From: Acidobacteriota bacterium
GTDB taxonomy: Bacteria > Acidobacteriota > Thermoanaerobaculia > Thermoanaerobaculales > Thermoanaerobaculaceae
Assembly: GCA_004298115.1 (NCBI GenBank)
Contig: SCRJ01000104.1
Location: forward strand, 1-44,607
DNA length: 44,607 bases
Direction: 5' to 3'
In this document: positions 15,703-23,915 of the stretch, in pieces
How positions within the stretch are numbered: position 1 is the first letter of the stretch
Layout of the letters: every line of letters begins with the position of its first letter
Notes under the pieces: model-generated
What the model was told of the DNA's origin: nothing
Database searches by the model: none
The model's input: the letters and a program-made list of their open reading frames with translations, nothing else
Made by a program: the position numbers and the translations under genes

Positions 15703-17382
15703 ATGGAGAGCGCCTCGGCGAGCGGGACCGTCATCCGACACGCGAGCGACCACACCATCCTGGCCGCTTTCGGGGACGAGGTCTCGCTCGCGGCCCACCG
15801 CCGGGTGCGCGCGGCGCTCCACGCCCTGCAGCGCGAGCCGATCCCCGGGGTGACCAACCTCCACCCGGCGTATGCGTCGGTCCTCGTGAGCTACGACCCT
15901 CTCGCGGCGGCCGGGGAACTCGTCGCAGGCGAGGTCGCGCGCCGCGTGCAGGCGGCGGGCGCGATTCCGCTGCCGGGGCCGGCCCTCGTCGAGATACCGG
16001 TGCGCTACGGCGGCGAGTGGGGTCCGGACCTCGCTGCGGTGGCGACGGCCTGCGGCCTGACCGAGGCCGAGGTCGCGCGCGAGCACGCCGCGGCCGAGTA
16101 CCTGGTGTACTTCCTCGGTTTCTCGCCGGGTTTCGCGTATCTGGGCGGGCTGCCGCCGGGCCTTGCGACGGCGCGGCGGGCGTCGCCCCGCACGCTCGTC
16201 CCCGCGGGCAGCGTCGCGATCGGCGGCCGTCAGACCGGCGTGTACCCGCTCGCGTCGCCGGGCGGCTGGCAGCTCATCGGGCGCACGCCGCTGGCGCTGT
16301 TCGACCCGGCGCGCACGCCGCCCGCGCTGCTGGCCGCGGGGGACCGGGTCAGGTTCGTCGCCGTGGCGGGCGGTCGCGGCGCCGCGTCGGCGTCGTCGGC
16401 GACGCAGGCGGCGCCCGCGACGGTGGCCGGAGCGGCACCCGCCCGCGCCATCCGCGTCGTCGCGCCGGGGTTCCAGAGCACGGTGCAGGACCTCGGGCGG
16501 CCCGGTTGGGCCCACCTCGGGGTTTCGGCGTCCGGAGCCGCCGACCCCGTCTCGCTCCGCATCGGCAACTGGCTGGTGGGGAACCCCGCCGGGGCCGCCG
16601 CGATCGAGATGACGCTGACCGGCGCCGCGCTCTCGTTCTCGGCCGCGTGCGTCGTCGCGGTGATCGGCTCCGACTTCGAGCCTGCCATCGACGGCGCCAG
16701 CGTCCCGCTCTGGGCCGCCCTGGAGGTCGGGCCGGGCCAGACCCTGGCGTGCCGCGCGACGAAGTCCGGGGCGCGCTGCGCGGTGTGCGTCCGCGGCGGC
16801 GTCGCCGCGCCGCCCGTTCTCGGCAGTGCCTCGACCCACCTCACGTCGGGTCTCGGCGGGGTCGCGGGGCGGCCCCTGCGCGCGGGGGACGTCCTGACGA
16901 CCGGCGCCGCGGCCGCGGATGCCGCAGCGGGGCGGCGTTTCCCGGCCGAGGCGGCCGAGCGGCTGCTGCGCCGCGACGCGGTGCGCGTCACCCGCGGCCC
17001 GCAGTGGGAGCGCTTCACGCCGCAGGCGCGGGCGGCGCTGTTCGCGTCGGAGTACGTGGTGAGCGAGAGCGCGAGCCGGATGGGGCTGCGCCTCGACGGG
17101 ACCCCGCTCGCGGCCGACCGGCCGGGCGAGATGCTCACCGAAGGCGTGTCGCTCGGGGCGCTGCAGGTGCCTGGCGACGGCCGGCCGATCGTCTCGTTCG
17201 TCGAGCACCAGACCACCGGCGGGTACCCGCAGATCGCCTGCGTGATCACGGCCGACCTGCACCGCGTCGGCCAGCTGCGTCCCCGCGACCGGCTCAGCTT
17301 CGTGGAAGTCTCGCTCGCGGAGGCCGCCGCCGCGCTGCGCGAGCTGGAGCGCGAGCTGCGCGCGTTCGGGGTGGGGCGGTGA
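15703..17382 (+). CDS. 5-oxoprolinase PxpB-PxpC fusion protein
   Basis: This 559-residue protein joins two subunits of the bacterial ATP-dependent 5-oxoprolinase, which opens 5-oxoproline to glutamate. The PxpB-like part (about residues 1-220) contains [18 protein letters not shown] and [17 protein letters not shown] short Ala/Ser-rich linker follows. The PxpC-like part (about 245-555) contains [31 protein letters not shown] and [16 protein letters not shown]. PxpB and PxpC are usually separate proteins, but fused forms are known and are related to the C-terminal part of urea amidolyase. The TGA overlaps the GTG of the transporter gene, and pxpA follows, so the full enzyme is encoded here. 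Confidence 0.92.
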
Positions 17383-18611
17383 GCGCGCTCCGTCCGGCCG
17401 CGGGCCTCGCCTCGGTGTCGGCGGCGCAGTGGCGGACGCTCGCCGCGGCGATGCTCGGGTGGATGCTCGACGCGATGGACGTGATGTTCTACGCGTTCGC
17501 CCTGACCGCGATCCGCGCCGAGTTCTCGCTCTCGGCCGCGACCGCCGGCGGGCTCGCGTCGGTGACGTTGCTCACGTCGGCGATCGGCGGGATCGGCTTC
17601 GGGGTCCTCGCCGACCGTATCGGCCGCGCCCGGGCGTTGATGTGGTCGATCCTGCTGTACTCCGTGTTCACGGCGCTCACCGCGACGGCCCACTCCTTGG
17701 CGGAGCTCGTCCTGTGGCGGTCGCTCGTGGGGATCGGCCTCGGCGGGGAGTGGGCCGCCGGGTCGGTCCTGGTCTCCGAGAGCTGGCCGCCCGAGCACCG
17801 CGGCAAGGCGATCGGGCTGATGCAGTCGGGGTGGGCGATCGGCTACATCTTCGCCGCGCTGCTGGCGTCGGCGATCCTCCCCGGCCATGGCTGGAGGGTG
17901 CTGTTCGCGATCGGCGTGGCGCCCGCGCTGCTGGCGTGGTGGGTGCGGCGGCGGGTGGAGGAGCCGCAGATCTGGCGGCGCGCGCGGCGCGGGCAGCGGC
18001 TCCCGTTCCGCGCGGTCTTCCGCCCGCCGCTGCTGCGCAACGTCCTGGTCGCGACGTCGCTCACGTCGTGCCTGCTGTTCGCGTACTGGGGCCTGTTCAC
18101 CTGGATCCCGGCGTACCTGGCGAGCCCGGTGACGAGCGGAGGCGCCGGGATGGGTATCGTGCGCTCCGCGGGGTGGATCGTGCCGATGCAGGTCGGCGCG
18201 TTCTTCGGGTACGTGCTGTTCGGCGTGCTCGCGGACCGCTTCGGCCGGCGGCCCGTCTTCATGACGTTCGTCTTCGCCGCCGCCGTGCTCGTGCCCCTCT
18301 ACGGGCAGCTCGGCGCGCGGCCGGCCGCGTTGATGGCGCTGGGCCCGCTGATCGGCTTCTTCGGGCACGGCTACTTCTCGCTGTTCGGCGCGATGCTGGC
18401 GGAGCTGTTCCCATCCTCGGTGCGGGCCACCGCGCAGGGCTTCTGCTACAACTTCGGCCGGGCGGCCAGCGCCCTGGCGCCGTTCGTCATCGGCGCGATC
18501 GCGGACCGCCACGGCATCGGCAGCGCGCTGGCGCTGACGTCGGCGTTCTTCGTCGCCGCGGGGTTCCTCATCCTGCTCCTGCCGGAGACCCGCGGGGAGG
18601 CGTTGCGATGA
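17379..18611 (+). CDS. MFS transporter, probably for an organic acid or 5-oxoproline
   Basis: This 410-residue inner-membrane protein has twelve expected helices. The first helix has [18 protein letters not shown], and the loop-2 motif is [13 protein letters not shown]. The helix-4 region has [17 protein letters not shown], and the helix-5 region has [18 protein letters not shown]. The mirrored motif [13 protein letters not shown] lies in the second half. This pattern matches the sialate/metabolite:H+ symporter branch of the major facilitator superfamily. It overlaps pxpBC by GTGA and pxpA by ATGA, so all three should be translated together. The placement suggests that it imports 5-oxoproline or a related carboxylate; that substrate is inferred from context only. 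Confidence 0.88.
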
Positions 18612-19399
18612 GCCAGGATGCGTCCCGGCACGTGACGATCGACCTCAACGCCGACGTCGGGGAGCTTCCCGACGCCCTGGACGACGGCCGGGAGGAGGCG
18701 CTGCTCGGTCTCGTCACCTCCGCAAACATCGCGTGCGGCGGCCACGCCGGCGACGAGCGGACGATGGCGGCGGTGTTGGGGCTCGCCCGGCGGCTCGGTG
18801 TGGCGGCCGGCGCCCACCCCGGCTACCCGGACCGCGCCACGTTCGGGCGGGTCTCGGCCGGGATGGACGCCGATGCGATCGAGAGGACGGTGTTCGAGCA
18901 GGTGCGGGCGCTGGCGGCGGCGGCGAGCCGGGCGGGGACGGTCCTGCTCCACGTGAAGCCGCACGGCGCCCTGTACAACGACGCCGCCGGCGACGCGGGC
19001 GTGGCGGCGGCGGTCGCCCGCGGCGTCGCGCGCTGGGGCCGGTCGGTCGCGCTGGTCGGTCTGGCGGGATCGCGCTGCCTGCAGGTCTACGACGGGTACG
19101 GCTTCGAGGCGGTGGGGGAGGGGTTCGCCGATCGCGCCTACGAGGCGAACGGCACCCTGCGGTCGCGCGCCTTGCCCGGGGCGTTGCACGCCGACCCGCG
19201 GGTCGCGGCCGCCCAGGCGGTGCGGATCGCGGTCCGGCGCCGCGTGGGCACGTTCGACGGCGGCGAGATCGGTCTGGACGCGCGCACGATCTGCGTCCAC
19301 GGCGACTCGCCCGGCGCGGCCGACGTCGCCCGCGCGGTACGCGCCGCGTTGCTCGCGGCGGGCGTCCGTCTGGCGCCGGTCGGCGGGCGACCGGCATGA
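18608..19399 (+). CDS. pxpA: 5-oxoprolinase subunit PxpA (LamB/YcsF family)
   Basis: This 263-residue subunit of 5-oxoprolinase belongs to the LamB/YcsF family. Recognisable blocks are IDLNADVGELPDAL at the start, TSANIACGGHAGDERTM, AGAHPGYPDRATFGR, LLHVKPHGALYN, and near the end ICVHGDSPGAADVARAVRAA. Family length is 240-260 residues, so it is complete. With the upstream PxpB-PxpC fusion it should make the full ATP-dependent enzyme that turns 5-oxoproline into glutamate. The ATG overlaps the transporter stop (ATGA). It converges on the PIG-L gene with only 18 bases between stops. Confidence 0.95.
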   Translation: MSQDASRHVTIDLNADVGELPDALDDGREEALLGLVTSANIACGGHAGDERTMAAVLGLARRLGVAAGAHPGYPDRATFGRVSAGMDADAIERTVFEQVRALAAAASRAGTVLLHVKPHGALYNDAAGDAGVAAAVARGVARWGRSVALVGLAGSRCLQVYDGYGFEAVGEGFADRAYEANGTLRSRALPGALHADPRVAAAQAVRIAVRRRVGTFDGGEIGLDARTICVHGDSPGAADVARAVRAALLAAGVRLAPVGGRPA

Positions 19400-19417: not shown

Positions 19418-20149
19418 CTACGAGGCCGGAGGAGCGCCCGCGAGCGCCCGCACCGTGCTGGCGCGCAGGTGCAGGGTGCGGAACGACTCGGCGAGGGCCA
19501 AGCCGCGTTCCTGGCCGACTTCCCGCGCCATGCGCTCGAACGCCGCCCGCGTGGGCTCGGGGGGGAACTGCGACGCGTGCTCGCAGATCAGCGCGACCTT
19601 CTCCTCGAACACCCCGGCGATGTCCACCCAGGTGTCGGCCTCGCCGGTCGGGCCGAGCCAGACCTCCGGGACGACGTGGGGCTGCAAGCCCTCGGCGATC
19701 AGCTCCGGGAAGATGCTCGCCTTCTTGACCGCAGGGTAGAGCGCCTCCACGGCCGCGTGGCCGGCCGCGCGGTGGTCCGGGTGGTTGATGTACGTCCCGT
19801 GCCGGAACCACACGGTGGGGTCGTTCGCCACCACCAGGTCGGGCCGTACCCGCCGCATCACGCGCACGAGATCCCGGCGGAGGTCGAGGGTGGGCTGCAG
19901 CATCCCGTCCTCGTAGCCGAGGGTGATCACGTCGGCGCCGAGGCGCGCGGCGGCTCGGGCCTGCTCGGCGCGGCGGCGCGCGATCACCGCCGCGCTGGTG
20001 TCGGCCGGATCGGCGGTGCCCTTGTCGCCGTCGGTGATCAGGCACAGGGTGATGGCGTGGCCTTCGGCAGCCCACTTGAGGAGGGTGCCGCCGGCCATCG
20101 TTTCCGCGTCGTCGGGGTGGGCGAAAAGCGTCAGGATGCGTTTGCTCAT
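19418..20149 (-). CDS. PIG-L family N-acetylglucosaminyl deacetylase-like protein
   Basis: This 243-residue zinc-dependent deacetylase belongs to the PIG-L/LmbE family. The zinc motif AHPDDAE lies at residues 10-16, with the catalytic Asp in it, and the second histidine motif is NHPDHRAAG near residue 120. DGDKGTADPADTSAA and LGYEDGMLQPTLDLR resemble the BshB/MshB-like branch, which removes acetyl groups from GlcNAc-containing small molecules or glycans. No bacillithiol or mycothiol partner genes are nearby, so the substrate is unknown. The ATG at 20149 is back to back with an upstream in-frame ATG (20148) of the divergent DegV fusion gene. Confidence 0.88.
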   Translation of the reverse strand: MSKRILTLFAHPDDAETMAGGTLLKWAAEGHAITLCLITDGDKGTADPADTSAAVIARRRAEQARAAARLGADVITLGYEDGMLQPTLDLRRDLVRVMRRVRPDLVVANDPTVWFRHGTYINHPDHRAAGHAAVEALYPAVKKASIFPELIAEGLQPHVVPEVWLGPTGEADTWVDIAGVFEEKVALICEHASQFPPEPTRAAFERMAREVGQERGLALAESFRTLHLRASTVRALAGAPPAS

Positions 20150-20231
20150 GGCGGTATACTACAAGTCGAAACGCGGCGTGCCGATTCCGCTCGATTTGGA
20201 TTCGCCGGACGCTCGATCCGCGGGGGAGACC

Positions 20232-22028
20232 ATGGCACGATTGACCGTCCTGGTGGTGGATCGGCGCGAGGACCGGCGCAAACAGCTCGCCCGCGGGCTC
20301 GCTTCGTACGCCTACGAGCTCGTCACGGCCGCGGACGGCGACGAAGGCCGGCGGTTCGCCGAGGGACTGGGCCCGGACGCGGTCGTCGTCGAGGCCGGCC
20401 TGGCCGGCGCGGTGCTGCCGGCGGGCAGCGCGGCCGGGACGGGCGCTCTGCGGATCGTGCTCGACGACGGGGAGGAGTACTCGGGCGACGGACCGGTCGT
20501 GGCGGCGGCGGGCCTCGCGCCGGAGGCGATCGTCAGCAAGGTGCGTACCGCGCTGCTGGGACGCGAGCTGGGCCTCGCCGCCGATGCCCGCCTCGAGGCC
20601 CTCGAGGGCAACCTGCTCGCGCTTCCCTTGCTCGAGCTGCTGCCGAAGCTGCAACGCCTGGTCGTCAGCGGCCGCGTGCTCCTCGGCGACGGCGAGGTCG
20701 CGCTCGACGAGGGCGAGGTGATCGCCGCGCGCACCGGTGCGGTGCGCGGCGCCAAGGCGTTCGCCAGGCTGGCGCGCACCACGTTCGGCAGCTTCCGCGT
20801 GTTGCCGACGGCCCCCGGGGCGGCGCGCGAGATTGCGGAGGACATGCTCAGCCTGATGGCGCTCGCCATGGAGGATCAGGCCCGCTTCGCCGGGGCGTGC
20901 GCTCGTCTCCCGGACCTGGCGAGCCGCCTGCGGCTGGTGATCGGCCCGGCGTTCTTCACGACGCCGTTCACGCCGGGCCAGCAGGGGGTGGTGGCCGGCG
21001 CCCACGACGGCGGCACCATCTGGGACGTCGTGGACAGGGTCCCGGAACCCGACGGCACGGTGCTGGCCGAGATCGCCCACCTGCACGAGGTGGGCCTGGT
21101 GGCGCTGGACGCGCCCGAGATCAAGGTGCGGGTCGTGACCGACTCGACCGCCGACCTGCCGGTCGAGGTGGCCCAGGCCAACCGCATCCACGTCGTGCCG
21201 CTGTCCGTGTTGATCGGGAAGGAGATCTACAAGGACGGCATCGACCTGCGGCCGGCGGCGTTCTACGAGCTGCTGCAGGACCACAAGCGCGGCCACCCGC
21301 AGACGAGTCCCCCCACGAAGGGCGAGTTCCTCGCCTCGTACCGCCAGGTCATCGGCCGCAGCGACGTGGTTTCCGTGCACATCTCCGAGAAGATGTCGCA
21401 GACGGTCGCGCGCGCCAGGGCCGCGGCCGCGGAGGGCGGCGAGGACTTTCAGAGGCTGCGCGGCGACGGCACGGCCGGTCTGGAGGTCGTCGACAGCCTC
21501 CAGGTCAGCACCGGCCTCGCCCTGCTCGCCGTGATCGCCGCTCGTCTGGCGATGCGGCGTCTCGGCGCGTCCGAGATCCGGGCGCGGATCGAGACGATGC
21601 GGCCCCGCATCCACCTGCTCTTCGTCGTCGACACGCTCGAGTACCTGGCCCGCGGCGGCAGGATCGGCCAGGCGCGGGCGTGGCTCGGAGCGCTCCTGGG
21701 CATCAAGCCGATCCTCGGCGTGGTGAACGGCGAGGTCGTGCCGGTCGATCGCGTGCGCGGCGGCGCCAACGCGCAGCCGCGCCTGGTGGCCCTGCTCAAG
21801 GAGCGCGTCGCTGCCGACCGACCCGTGATCGCGGGGATCGGGCACGCGGCGGCGCCGGAGTGGGCGGTGCGGCTGCGCAGCCTGCTGCACGACTCCTTCA
21901 AGGTCGCGGAGCTGCTCGAGAACGAGATCGGGCCGGTCGTCGGGACCCACGTCGGGCCGGGCTGCGTCGGCGCGGCGGTCTTCCAGCCCACCGAGGACGA
22001 GCTGGCGCTGATCGCGCCGCAGGCGTAG
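20232..22028 (+). CDS. Pseudo-receiver + DUF4388 + DegV fatty-acid-binding fusion
   Basis: This 598-residue protein has three parts. Residues 1-115 resemble a response-regulator receiver (LTVLVVDRREDRRKQLARGL), but the usual phospho-Asp is Glu54 (VVVEAGLAG) and the acidic pair is reduced to one Asp. Residues about 125-215 match DUF4388/PATAN: LEGNLLALPLLELLPKLQ, VSGRVLLGDGEVAL, RTTFGSFRVLP. From about 298 a complete DegV domain begins with VRVVTDSTADLPVEVA, then TSPPTKGEFLASY, VHISEKMSQTV and DTLEYLARGGRIGQA. DegV proteins bind a fatty acid and, as FakB, present it for phosphorylation. ATG 20232 has GGGGAG upstream; an in-frame ATG at 20148 exists but would overlap the PIG-L start. Confidence 0.88.
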   Translation: MARLTVLVVDRREDRRKQLARGLASYAYELVTAADGDEGRRFAEGLGPDAVVVEAGLAGAVLPAGSAAGTGALRIVLDDGEEYSGDGPVVAAAGLAPEAIVSKVRTALLGRELGLAADARLEALEGNLLALPLLELLPKLQRLVVSGRVLLGDGEVALDEGEVIAARTGAVRGAKAFARLARTTFGSFRVLPTAPGAAREIAEDMLSLMALAMEDQARFAGACARLPDLASRLRLVIGPAFFTTPFTPGQQGVVAGAHDGGTIWDVVDRVPEPDGTVLAEIAHLHEVGLVALDAPEIKVRVVTDSTADLPVEVAQANRIHVVPLSVLIGKEIYKDGIDLRPAAFYELLQDHKRGHPQTSPPTKGEFLASYRQVIGRSDVVSVHISEKMSQTVARARAAAAEGGEDFQRLRGDGTAGLEVVDSLQVSTGLALLAVIAARLAMRRLGASEIRARIETMRPRIHLLFVVDTLEYLARGGRIGQARAWLGALLGIKPILGVVNGEVVPVDRVRGGANAQPRLVALLKERVAADRPVIAGIGHAAAPEWAVRLRSLLHDSFKVAELLENEIGPVVGTHVGPGCVGAAVFQPTEDELALIAPQA

Positions 22029-22037
22029 GCGGCGCCG

Positions 22038-23915
22038 TCACGCCACAGGGCCGCGCGGCGCCAGCGGCCGGGGGCGGGTCATCCTCTCGGGCGAGAGCAG
22101 CTCGTCCAGTTCGGAGCTCGACAGCAGGCCTTTGGCGAGGATGATCTCGCGGACCGGCTTGCCGGTCGCGAGCGCCTCCCTGGCGACCTCGCTCGCGCGC
22201 TCGTAGCCGAGCGCCGGCACCACCGCGGTCACGATGCCGATCGAGCGCTCCACCTGCGTGCGGCAGCGCTCCGCGTTGGCCGTGATGCCGCGGACGCAGC
22301 GGACCGTGAGCGTGTCGACGGCGGCGGTGAGCATCTGGAGCGACTGGAACAGGGCGAACGCGATGATCGGCTCCATGACGTTGAGCTGGAGCTGGCCGGC
22401 CTCGGCGGCCAGGGTGATCGTCAGGTCGTTCCCGATCACCTGGAACGCCACCTGGTTGACGACCTCGGGGATGACGGGGTTCACCTTGCCGGGCATGATC
22501 GAGGAGCCGGGCTGCATCGGGGGCAGGTTGATCTCCGCGAAGCCGCAACGGGGGCCGGAGGAGAGCAGCCGGAAGTCGTTGCACATCTTGGAGAGCTTGA
22601 CCGCGGTGCGCTTGAGCGCGCCGGAGAACATGACGAACGCCCCGGTGTCCGGGGTCGCCTCCACGAGGTTCTCCGCCAGCACCAGGTCGAGAGCGGTGAC
22701 CCGGCGGAGTTGTTCCACGACGAGACGCGGGTAGAGCGGGTCGGCGTTGATCCCGGTGCCGATCGCCGTCCCGCCCATGTTGACCTCGAGAAACAGGCGC
22801 GCGGTCTCGCGCAAGCGGGCGATGTCCTCGCCGGTGGTGACGGCGAACGCCGTGAACTCCTGCCCCATCGTCATCGGAACGGCGTCCTGGAGCTGGGTCC
22901 GTCCCATCTTCACCACGGTGCGGAACTCCTCGCCCTTGGCGGCCAGCGCGGCGCGCAACTTGTCCAGGGCGGCGATCAGGCTCTGCAGCGAGAGCACGGT
23001 GGCGATCCTGAGCGCCGTCGGGTACACGTCGTTGGTCGACTGCGACAGGTTGACCTGGTTGTTGGGATGGCAGCGCGCATAGTCGCCGCGGCGGGCGCCG
23101 AGGATCTCGAGCGCGCGGTTCGCGATGACCTCGTTGGCGTTCATGTTCGTGGAGGTGCCGGCGCCGCCCTGCACCGCGTCCACCACGAAGTGGCCGTGGT
23201 GGTGGCCGTCGACGATCTCCTGGCACGCGCGGTCGATCGCGGCGGCGACCTCGGCATCGAGCAGCCCGAGTCCGAGGTTGGCCCGGGCCGCCGCCTGTTT
23301 CACCATCGCCAGCGCGCGCACGAGGACCGGGAAGTGGGACAGGTGCACGCCGGAGATCGGGAAGTTCTCGACGGCGCGCAACGTCTGGACGCCGAAGAGC
23401 GCATCCGCGGGCACCTCGCGGTCGCCGAGGAGGTCGTGCTCTGTCCTCGTCGCCCCCGACCCGTACGCCTTGTCGCGACCGACCGGGCCGTCACTGGCGT
23501 ACTGCAAACGCCGGTTGATGGCGACCGCCACGCGGCTGAGGACCTCGACGGCGGCTGCGCCGTCGGCCGCCAGGCTGGCGCGGACCGCGTCCCGCTCCAG
23601 CACCAGCACCGACAGCGCCGTCAGCGCCAGCGCCGAGGTGGTGTGCAGCGAGGCGTGCAGGAGCGAACCCTCCCCGAGCGCGTCGCCGGGGCCCAGAACG
23701 GCGAGCCGTTGGGCGCCGTCGCGGCCCTCGCGCAGGATCTCGGCCTGTCCTTCCACGATCACGAAGCAAGCGTTCCTGGGCGAGCCGTCCGTGTACAGGG
23801 CGTCCCCAGCCGCGACCTCGAGCGGCCGGGACGCGGCCGCGAGCATCGCCACGGTGCCCTCGTCGAGGCCGGCGAACAGCTCACAAGTGCGCAATGTGGC
23901 GCGAACGTCGTGCAT
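22038..23915 (-). CDS. Aspartate ammonia-lyase with N-terminal cyclic-nucleotide-binding-like domain
   Basis: This 625-residue fusion has a CAP/CRP-type beta-roll at about residues 8-120 (LFAGLDEGTVAMLAAASRPL, FVIVEGQAEILREG, LGPGDALGEGSLLHASL). An aspartase domain follows from about 157 to the end. It shows EHDLLGDREVP, GGAGTSTNMNANEVIANRAL, LSQSTNDVYPTALRIA, MGRTQLQDAVPMTMGQEF and the signature GSSIMPGKVNPVIPEVVNQV. The NPVIPEVVNQV wording points to aspartase rather than class II fumarase, so the reaction is aspartate to fumarate plus ammonia. The cyclic-nucleotide phosphate-binding Arg is not seen: the aligned stretch is SLHTTSALAL. The ATG at 23915 has GGGAGG upstream. It ends nine bases from the convergent DegV fusion. 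Confidence 0.92.
   Translation of the reverse strand: MHDVRATLRTCELFAGLDEGTVAMLAAASRPLEVAAGDALYTDGSPRNACFVIVEGQAEILREGRDGAQRLAVLGPGDALGEGSLLHASLHTTSALALTALSVLVLERDAVRASLAADGAAAVEVLSRVAVAINRRLQYASDGPVGRDKAYGSGATRTEHDLLGDREVPADALFGVQTLRAVENFPISGVHLSHFPVLVRALAMVKQAAARANLGLGLLDAEVAAAIDRACQEIVDGHHHGHFVVDAVQGGAGTSTNMNANEVIANRALEILGARRGDYARCHPNNQVNLSQSTNDVYPTALRIATVLSLQSLIAALDKLRAALAAKGEEFRTVVKMGRTQLQDAVPMTMGQEFTAFAVTTGEDIARLRETARLFLEVNMGGTAIGTGINADPLYPRLVVEQLRRVTALDLVLAENLVEATPDTGAFVMFSGALKRTAVKLSKMCNDFRLLSSGPRCGFAEINLPPMQPGSSIMPGKVNPVIPEVVNQVAFQVIGNDLTITLAAEAGQLQLNVMEPIIAFALFQSLQMLTAAVDTLTVRCVRGITANAERCRTQVERSIGIVTAVVPALGYERASEVAREALATGKPVREIILAKGLLSSSELDELLSPERMTRPRPLAPRGPVA

Follow-up and report, generated by a model that had tools for sequence, protein, structure and literature searches.

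FakB proteins are described as kinase shuttles, and the gene at positions 20232 to 22028 of the window (the whole stretch of 44,607 nucleotides that was analysed) belongs to a family in which a FakB-type domain is joined to signalling domains and often persists without the kinase. The question raised by this locus, which such a kinase-free domain makes testable, is whether it lets bacteria monitor their fatty-acid pool. The combination of a pseudo-receiver and an identifiable ligand domain on one chain would provide a direct way in; if the reading developed below is true, pseudo-receivers gain a new kind of small-molecule input, and a group of Acidobacteriota gains a candidate lipid-status signal.

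The gene and its N-terminal modules

The open reading frame begins with ATG and has GGGGGAG just upstream. Its product is 40-83% identical to full-length relatives in sister genera and families, and we therefore regard it as a real gene. A scan of positions 20050-20300 for promoters and terminators found none. The gene and its immediate surroundings are as follows:

20232..22028, + strand: gene of 598 amino acids for a predicted pseudo-receiver/DUF4388/winged-helix/DegV protein (open reading frame, relatives, model)
20222..20228, + strand: likely ribosome-binding site GGGGGAG (sequence; similar G-rich stretches lie 5' of the relatives' starts)
19418-20149, - strand: PIG-L family gene, divergent from the fusion gene (flank)
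22038-23900, - strand: cNMP-binding domain fused N-terminally to an aspartase/fumarase-type lyase, convergent (flank)

Sequence homologous to the last of these genes also adjoins the fusion gene in other genomes of the same family. A 5-oxoprolinase-type cluster at 15703-19399 (+) encodes a fused PxpB/PxpC carboxyltransferase-like protein, an MFS transporter and a LamB/YcsF (PxpA-like) protein.

The first-pass annotation had described a fusion of three domains, a receiver, DUF4388 and DegV, all of which are present; it had overlooked a fourth, winged-helix-like module at about residues 232-295. An AlphaFold model of residues 1-296, built with 35 sequences (pLDDT 94.5, pTM 0.89), together with the fold matches and the DegV match, therefore gives four modules in the order pseudo-receiver, DUF4388, winged helix and DegV. 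The N-terminal features are:

20232..20576, + strand: degenerate receiver domain, residues 1-115 (fold model, Foldseek, Pfam Response_reg in 18/24 relatives)
20391..20393, + strand: Glu54 codon, at the phospho-Asp position and variable in relatives (model, alignment)
20589..20909, + strand: DUF4388/PATAN domain, about residues 120-226 (Pfam in 21/24 relatives; model)
20925..21116, + strand: winged-helix-like segment, about residues 232-295, acidic (model; Pfam HTH_27 in 3/24 relatives)

In the model the receiver comprises beta1 (5-9), alpha1 (13-24), beta2 (29-33), alpha2 (36-46), beta3 (50-54), alpha3 (55-61), beta4 (73-78), beta5 (89-91) and alpha5 (97-113); alpha4 of the (beta-alpha)5 fold is absent and the rest of the fold is present. 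The closest solved structures to the N-terminal half are response regulators (Foldseek; PrrA, E 7e-5), and the best Response_reg match among the relatives reaches 7.6e-7. Structure prediction and Foldseek thus uphold the earlier assignment of a receiver fold to residues 1-115, and the model places Glu54 where that annotation had put it, in the phospho-Asp position, which in this fold closes beta3. We rejected the further idea that Glu54 is a meaningful phosphomimic because the residue is not conserved across relatives: over 38 sequences, position 54 is H in 11, P in 8, E in 5, D in 4, T in 4, A in 3, S in 2 and Q in 1. The first acidic-pair position is occupied by V, A, L or I, and near the ends of beta4 and beta5 the aligned relatives share neither a Thr/Ser nor a Lys; the usual phosphotransfer residues of a canonical receiver (phospho-Asp, acidic pair, Thr/Ser and Lys) are accordingly lacking. 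Judged from the model and the alignment, the N-terminal domain is a pseudo-receiver, defined as a receiver fold without the key phosphotransfer residues (PMC12632262).

The match to DUF4388 (PF14332) in the target protein itself, at residues 126-214, is sub-threshold (E 0.014; 15.9 bits vs the Pfam cut-off of 25), and the best match among the relatives has an E-value of 3.8e-8. We take DUF4388 and the PATAN domain to be the same domain. In the model its C-terminal helix extends to residue 225, and the winged-helix-like segment follows to 293. This segment carries a net charge of -6 in the target and a mean of -3.8 over 35 relatives, and the positively charged recognition surface of a DNA-binding winged helix was not found, as judged by sequence alone; its acidity argues for protein contacts and against DNA binding.

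The DegV domain and its putative fatty-acid site

The C-terminal half of the protein holds the following features, in which residues are related to Staphylococcus aureus FakB1:

21123..21983, + strand: FakB-type DegV domain, putatively fatty-acid-binding, residues 298-584 (Pfam E 3.4e-70; Foldseek)
21303..21305, + strand: Thr358, equivalent to FakB1 Thr62, carboxylate network (alignment)
21384..21386, + strand: Ser385, equivalent to FakB1 Ser95, invariant (alignment)
21660..21662, + strand: Arg477, equivalent to FakB1 Arg173 (latch, catalysis), invariant (alignment)
21756..21758, + strand: Arg509, equivalent to FakB1 Arg205 (membrane and FakA contact), invariant (alignment)
21948..21950, + strand: His573, equivalent to FakB1 His270 (alignment)

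The Pfam DegV match covers 278 of 280 positions at 237 bits (cut-off 27) and TIGR00762 scores 257.7 (cut-off 99.7), while the NCBIfam FakB1 equivalog NF038249, at 113 bits, stays below its cut-off of 350. Foldseek with the full-length model returned the fatty-acid-binding DegV protein 2dt8 as the best match (E 1.7e-26; TM 0.91 by target), and the DegV part also matched FakB1 (5uto, E 6.3e-24). The full-length model has a pTM of 0.58, which makes the placement of DegV relative to the other modules unreliable.

S. aureus FakB1 binds the carboxylate of the fatty acid through a network of Thr62, Ser95, Ser171 and His270; Arg173 serves as latch and catalytic residue, and Arg205 contacts the membrane and FakA (PMC8892158, PMC9136124). 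The FakB1 numbering was transferred by alignment, and the mapping is our own. All 38 aligned sequences keep R477, R509 and S385, and T358 and H573 each occur in 35 of them; the counterpart of Ser171 in the target is G475. The presence of the lipid-pocket residues T358, S385, H573, R477 and R509 bears out what the first-pass annotation had assumed of the DegV domain. DegV is also the most conserved part of the protein, with a mean identity to the target of 57% vs 39-44% for the other domains, and the site Arg, Ser, Thr and His are equally conserved in families with and without FakA. By alignment and fold comparison, the domain is a complete FakB-type DegV domain that keeps a putative fatty-acid site and the membrane-docking arginine.

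Known FakB/DegV proteins (PF02645, TIGR00762), among them FakB1, FakB2, Bacillus subtilis DegV (3fys) and the Thermus protein 2dt8, share with the fusion the full-length domain, its fold, the carboxylate-site residues and both conserved arginines. They are standalone carriers for FakA, whereas in the fusion the domain forms the C-terminal part of a signalling protein, and FakA is missing from most genomes with the fusion.

Distribution of the fusion and of fatty acid kinase

An architecture search recovered the fusion in 46 of 148 sampled Thermoanaerobaculia genomes, spread over eight families of the class (f1, f2, f12, f13, f14, f15, f16 and f18). In a tree built with 35 fusion DegV domains, these group together in a single clade (support 100/100) that is separate from the DegV domains fused to Dak2; the tree has long branches among the kinase-fused sequences, and we claim from it only the separation of the clades. 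Given this single clade and the 46 of 148 carriers, the fusion is old. A recent or artefactual fusion was rejected, since the protein is conserved across eight families and has one origin, and the tree likewise rejects derivation of the domain from a Dak2-DegV paralogue.

In a genome scan, every close match came from a record of Acidobacteriota or of an uncultured bacterium (Thermoanaerobaculia, Thermoanaerobaculaceae and Holophagales are among the titles) and had some 300 residues ahead of DegV, and the next best matches (Symbiobacteriaceae, Cohnella, Chloroflexi, Clostridia and Thermus) were almost all standalone DegV proteins. The intact form of the fusion is confined to the target's class in the samples taken. 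Restriction of the whole architecture to that class was rejected, because a divergent version without the lipid site occurs in another Acidobacteriota family (L136:3753-5516 and L137:3821-5584; 19-20% identity). These two proteins match Response_reg, DUF4388 and, more weakly, DegV (E 3.1e-14 and 1.9e-16), have N or A at the phospho-Asp position, and have lost the Ser95 and His270 motifs along with the segment that would bear the Arg173 equivalent. Their sequences suggest either that lipid binding was lost there or that the architecture works without it. Persistence of the architecture in such a form, similar to FakA_C, where the fold is present but the tunnel insertions are missing (PMC9136124), is what would be expected if DegV were only a structural or protein-binding module that binds no lipid in the cell. 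We consider this improbable for the target's class, in which the site residues are almost invariant and DegV is the best-conserved domain.

Dak2 and FakA-M were searched over the genomes of the class and the tables compared by hand. Neither was detected in 30 of the 46 fusion genomes, 24 of these 30 being at least 90% complete with contamination of at most 5%; Dak2 is present in the other 16, namely 14 of family f1 plus G017 and G023. A control search for PlsX matched in 142 of the 148 class genomes. Every further DegV domain in the class shares a reading frame or a contig with Dak2 or FakA-M, and nearly all of them belong to a Dak2-FakA_M-DegV fusion; standalone FakB was not seen among the class genomes sampled. 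The target genome, which the first-pass annotation had proposed to check for fakA/Dak genes, encodes one such Dak2-FakA_M-DegV protein (L002:562-2343, contig C103), and this holds its only Dak2. There a FakB-type domain replaces FakA_C, apparently giving a one-chain fatty acid kinase; like the fusion it is a multidomain protein with DegV, but its architecture is that of a kinase and its DegV falls in the separate clade.

This kinase distribution bears on the possibility that the protein is still a FakB, carrying fatty acid to the Dak2 kinase while its N-terminal half only localises or regulates it, which would place lipid scavenging under the control of signalling. The FakB residues listed above are all conserved, Arg477 and Arg509 included, the target genome and the rest of family f1 have the Dak2-FakA_M-DegV protein, and both PlsX and PlsY occur (in the target genome PlsY is split into two fragments lying at contig ends or edges). 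We nevertheless judge such a role unlikely, because 30 of the 46 fusion genomes have neither Dak2 nor FakA-M and because the kinase, where present, bears a DegV domain of its own where one would expect FakA_C, the part that normally binds FakB (PMC9136124).

A sensor or a kinase-independent carrier accounts better than a Fak subunit for a lipid site that is kept in the absence of the kinase. Such a carrier might move acyl-phosphate or fatty acid among PlsX, PlsY and the membrane, for example, with the regulatory half setting where and when. FakB can exchange acyl-phosphate with PlsX and PlsY (PMC9136124), and conservation of the site without FakA and the near universality of PlsX in the class agree with the idea; yet no plsX or plsY linkage appears in the neighbourhoods seen, and the gene associations described in the next section point to signalling, so we regard this role as slightly less likely still.

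A conserved operon with lipid genes was rejected, as none was found across families and the neighbours of the fusion gene differ: PIG-L in the target's family, an LpxL-type acyltransferase in f2, and chorismate mutase/prephenate dehydratase in some others. In nine f2 loci the LpxL/HtrB-type lipid A acyltransferase gene (L060:3003-4157, -) lies divergently upstream of the fusion, a possible lipid link that is limited to f2. Downstream of the fusion, several f2 genomes encode a GreA/GreB-type protein that is extended N-terminally by about 560 residues (L060:6135-8297, -).

Candidate signalling partners and a proposed lipid-gated reading

Directly upstream of the fusion gene and on the same strand, L062, L079/L134, L132 and L135 carry a gene for a Response_reg plus DUF4388 protein of roughly 490-520 amino acids, with two copies of the arrangement in L132. 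These proteins share the two N-terminal domain types of the fusion and have no DegV. In L133 (5947-9033, -) a REC-DUF4388 protein of this kind and the pseudo-receiver/DUF4388/DegV protein are joined in one frame, as a single open reading frame of 1028 amino acids with no stops. The phospho-Asp is kept in the first receiver of L133 (VILDIMMP) and in the second L132 copy (VVLD), and the remaining partner receivers have G or S at this position. The adjacency together with the in-frame fusion supports a common complex or pathway, in some families only.

The earlier claim that lipid status is read into a signalling protein stands in its structural part, since the DegV site and the receiver fold show a lipid-binding-type domain joined to a signalling protein; the sensing itself we treat as follows. 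We hold with even confidence that the protein is a fatty-acid (or acyl-phosphate) gated pseudo-response regulator and no longer a carrier of kinase substrate. With slightly less than even confidence we propose that it is a FakB-type protein turned signalling sensor, mostly in organisms without fatty acid kinase, in which exchange at the membrane switches the pseudo-receiver/DUF4388 half. The DegV domain would dock on the inner face of the membrane and there exchange fatty acid, or acyl-phosphate that PlsX has made. This exchange would change its conformation, as FakB1 opens and closes at membranes (PMC8892158). Whether the domain is loaded or empty, and open or closed, would then be passed to the DUF4388/pseudo-receiver half and alter how that half binds signalling partners; in several families the partner is probably the neighbouring REC-DUF4388 protein. 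Instead of handing fatty acid to the FakA kinase, the fusion protein would report lipid supply, with motility or polarity machinery, transcription or lipid synthesis as candidate outputs.

The sensor reading gains weight from the 30 of 46 fusion genomes without a detectable FakA kinase domain, and a fusion family of Acidobacteriota that is often without the kinase suggests that the cell senses its fatty-acid or lipid state. The invariant Arg477, whose counterpart is essential for Fak catalysis in S. aureus, fits a role as latch and fits a role with the kinase as well. The main counter-evidence is the persistence of the architecture without the lipid site in L136 and L137. The target genome also counts against the sensor reading, as it has a Dak2 kinase, and none of its 15 DUF4388 matches is an orthologue of the REC-DUF4388 partner.

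Several known systems resemble parts of this proposal. Streptococcus pyogenes FakB4, also a DegV protein, acts on lipids in a regulatory way: it limits their quantity and the release of vesicles, and plays no major part in the incorporation of exogenous fatty acids (PMC10138225); it differs in being standalone, in an organism that has FakA, and in having no receiver or DUF4388. The cyanobacterial regulators PatA, PixE and LsiR combine a receiver with a PATAN-type domain and act by protein contacts, for example with PilB, and PATAN response regulators are thought to act on the pilus motor (PMC7690835). Their receiver is CheY-like and they have no lipid-binding domain, whereas the receiver of the fusion comes first and is degenerate. 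Myxococcus xanthus FrzS, whose pseudo-receiver binds SgmX (PMC11580455), and the pseudo-receivers of a review (PMC12632262) likewise have a receiver fold without the key phosphotransfer residues. Together, the PATAN regulators and the FrzS-SgmX pair indicate that such modules can work by protein contacts. None of the reviewed pseudo-receivers is described with a DegV domain, a word absent from the text of that review, and a literature search for DegV with a receiver domain found no describing paper, although its coverage was limited and absence is not proof. Within that limited search, then, we found no earlier description of a pseudo-response regulator with a FakB-type input domain, as this protein appears to be.

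The target genome (G000) is itself rich in DUF4388, its 15 matched stretches being spread over about a dozen open reading frames, and some of these stretches are followed by a winged-helix-like stretch.
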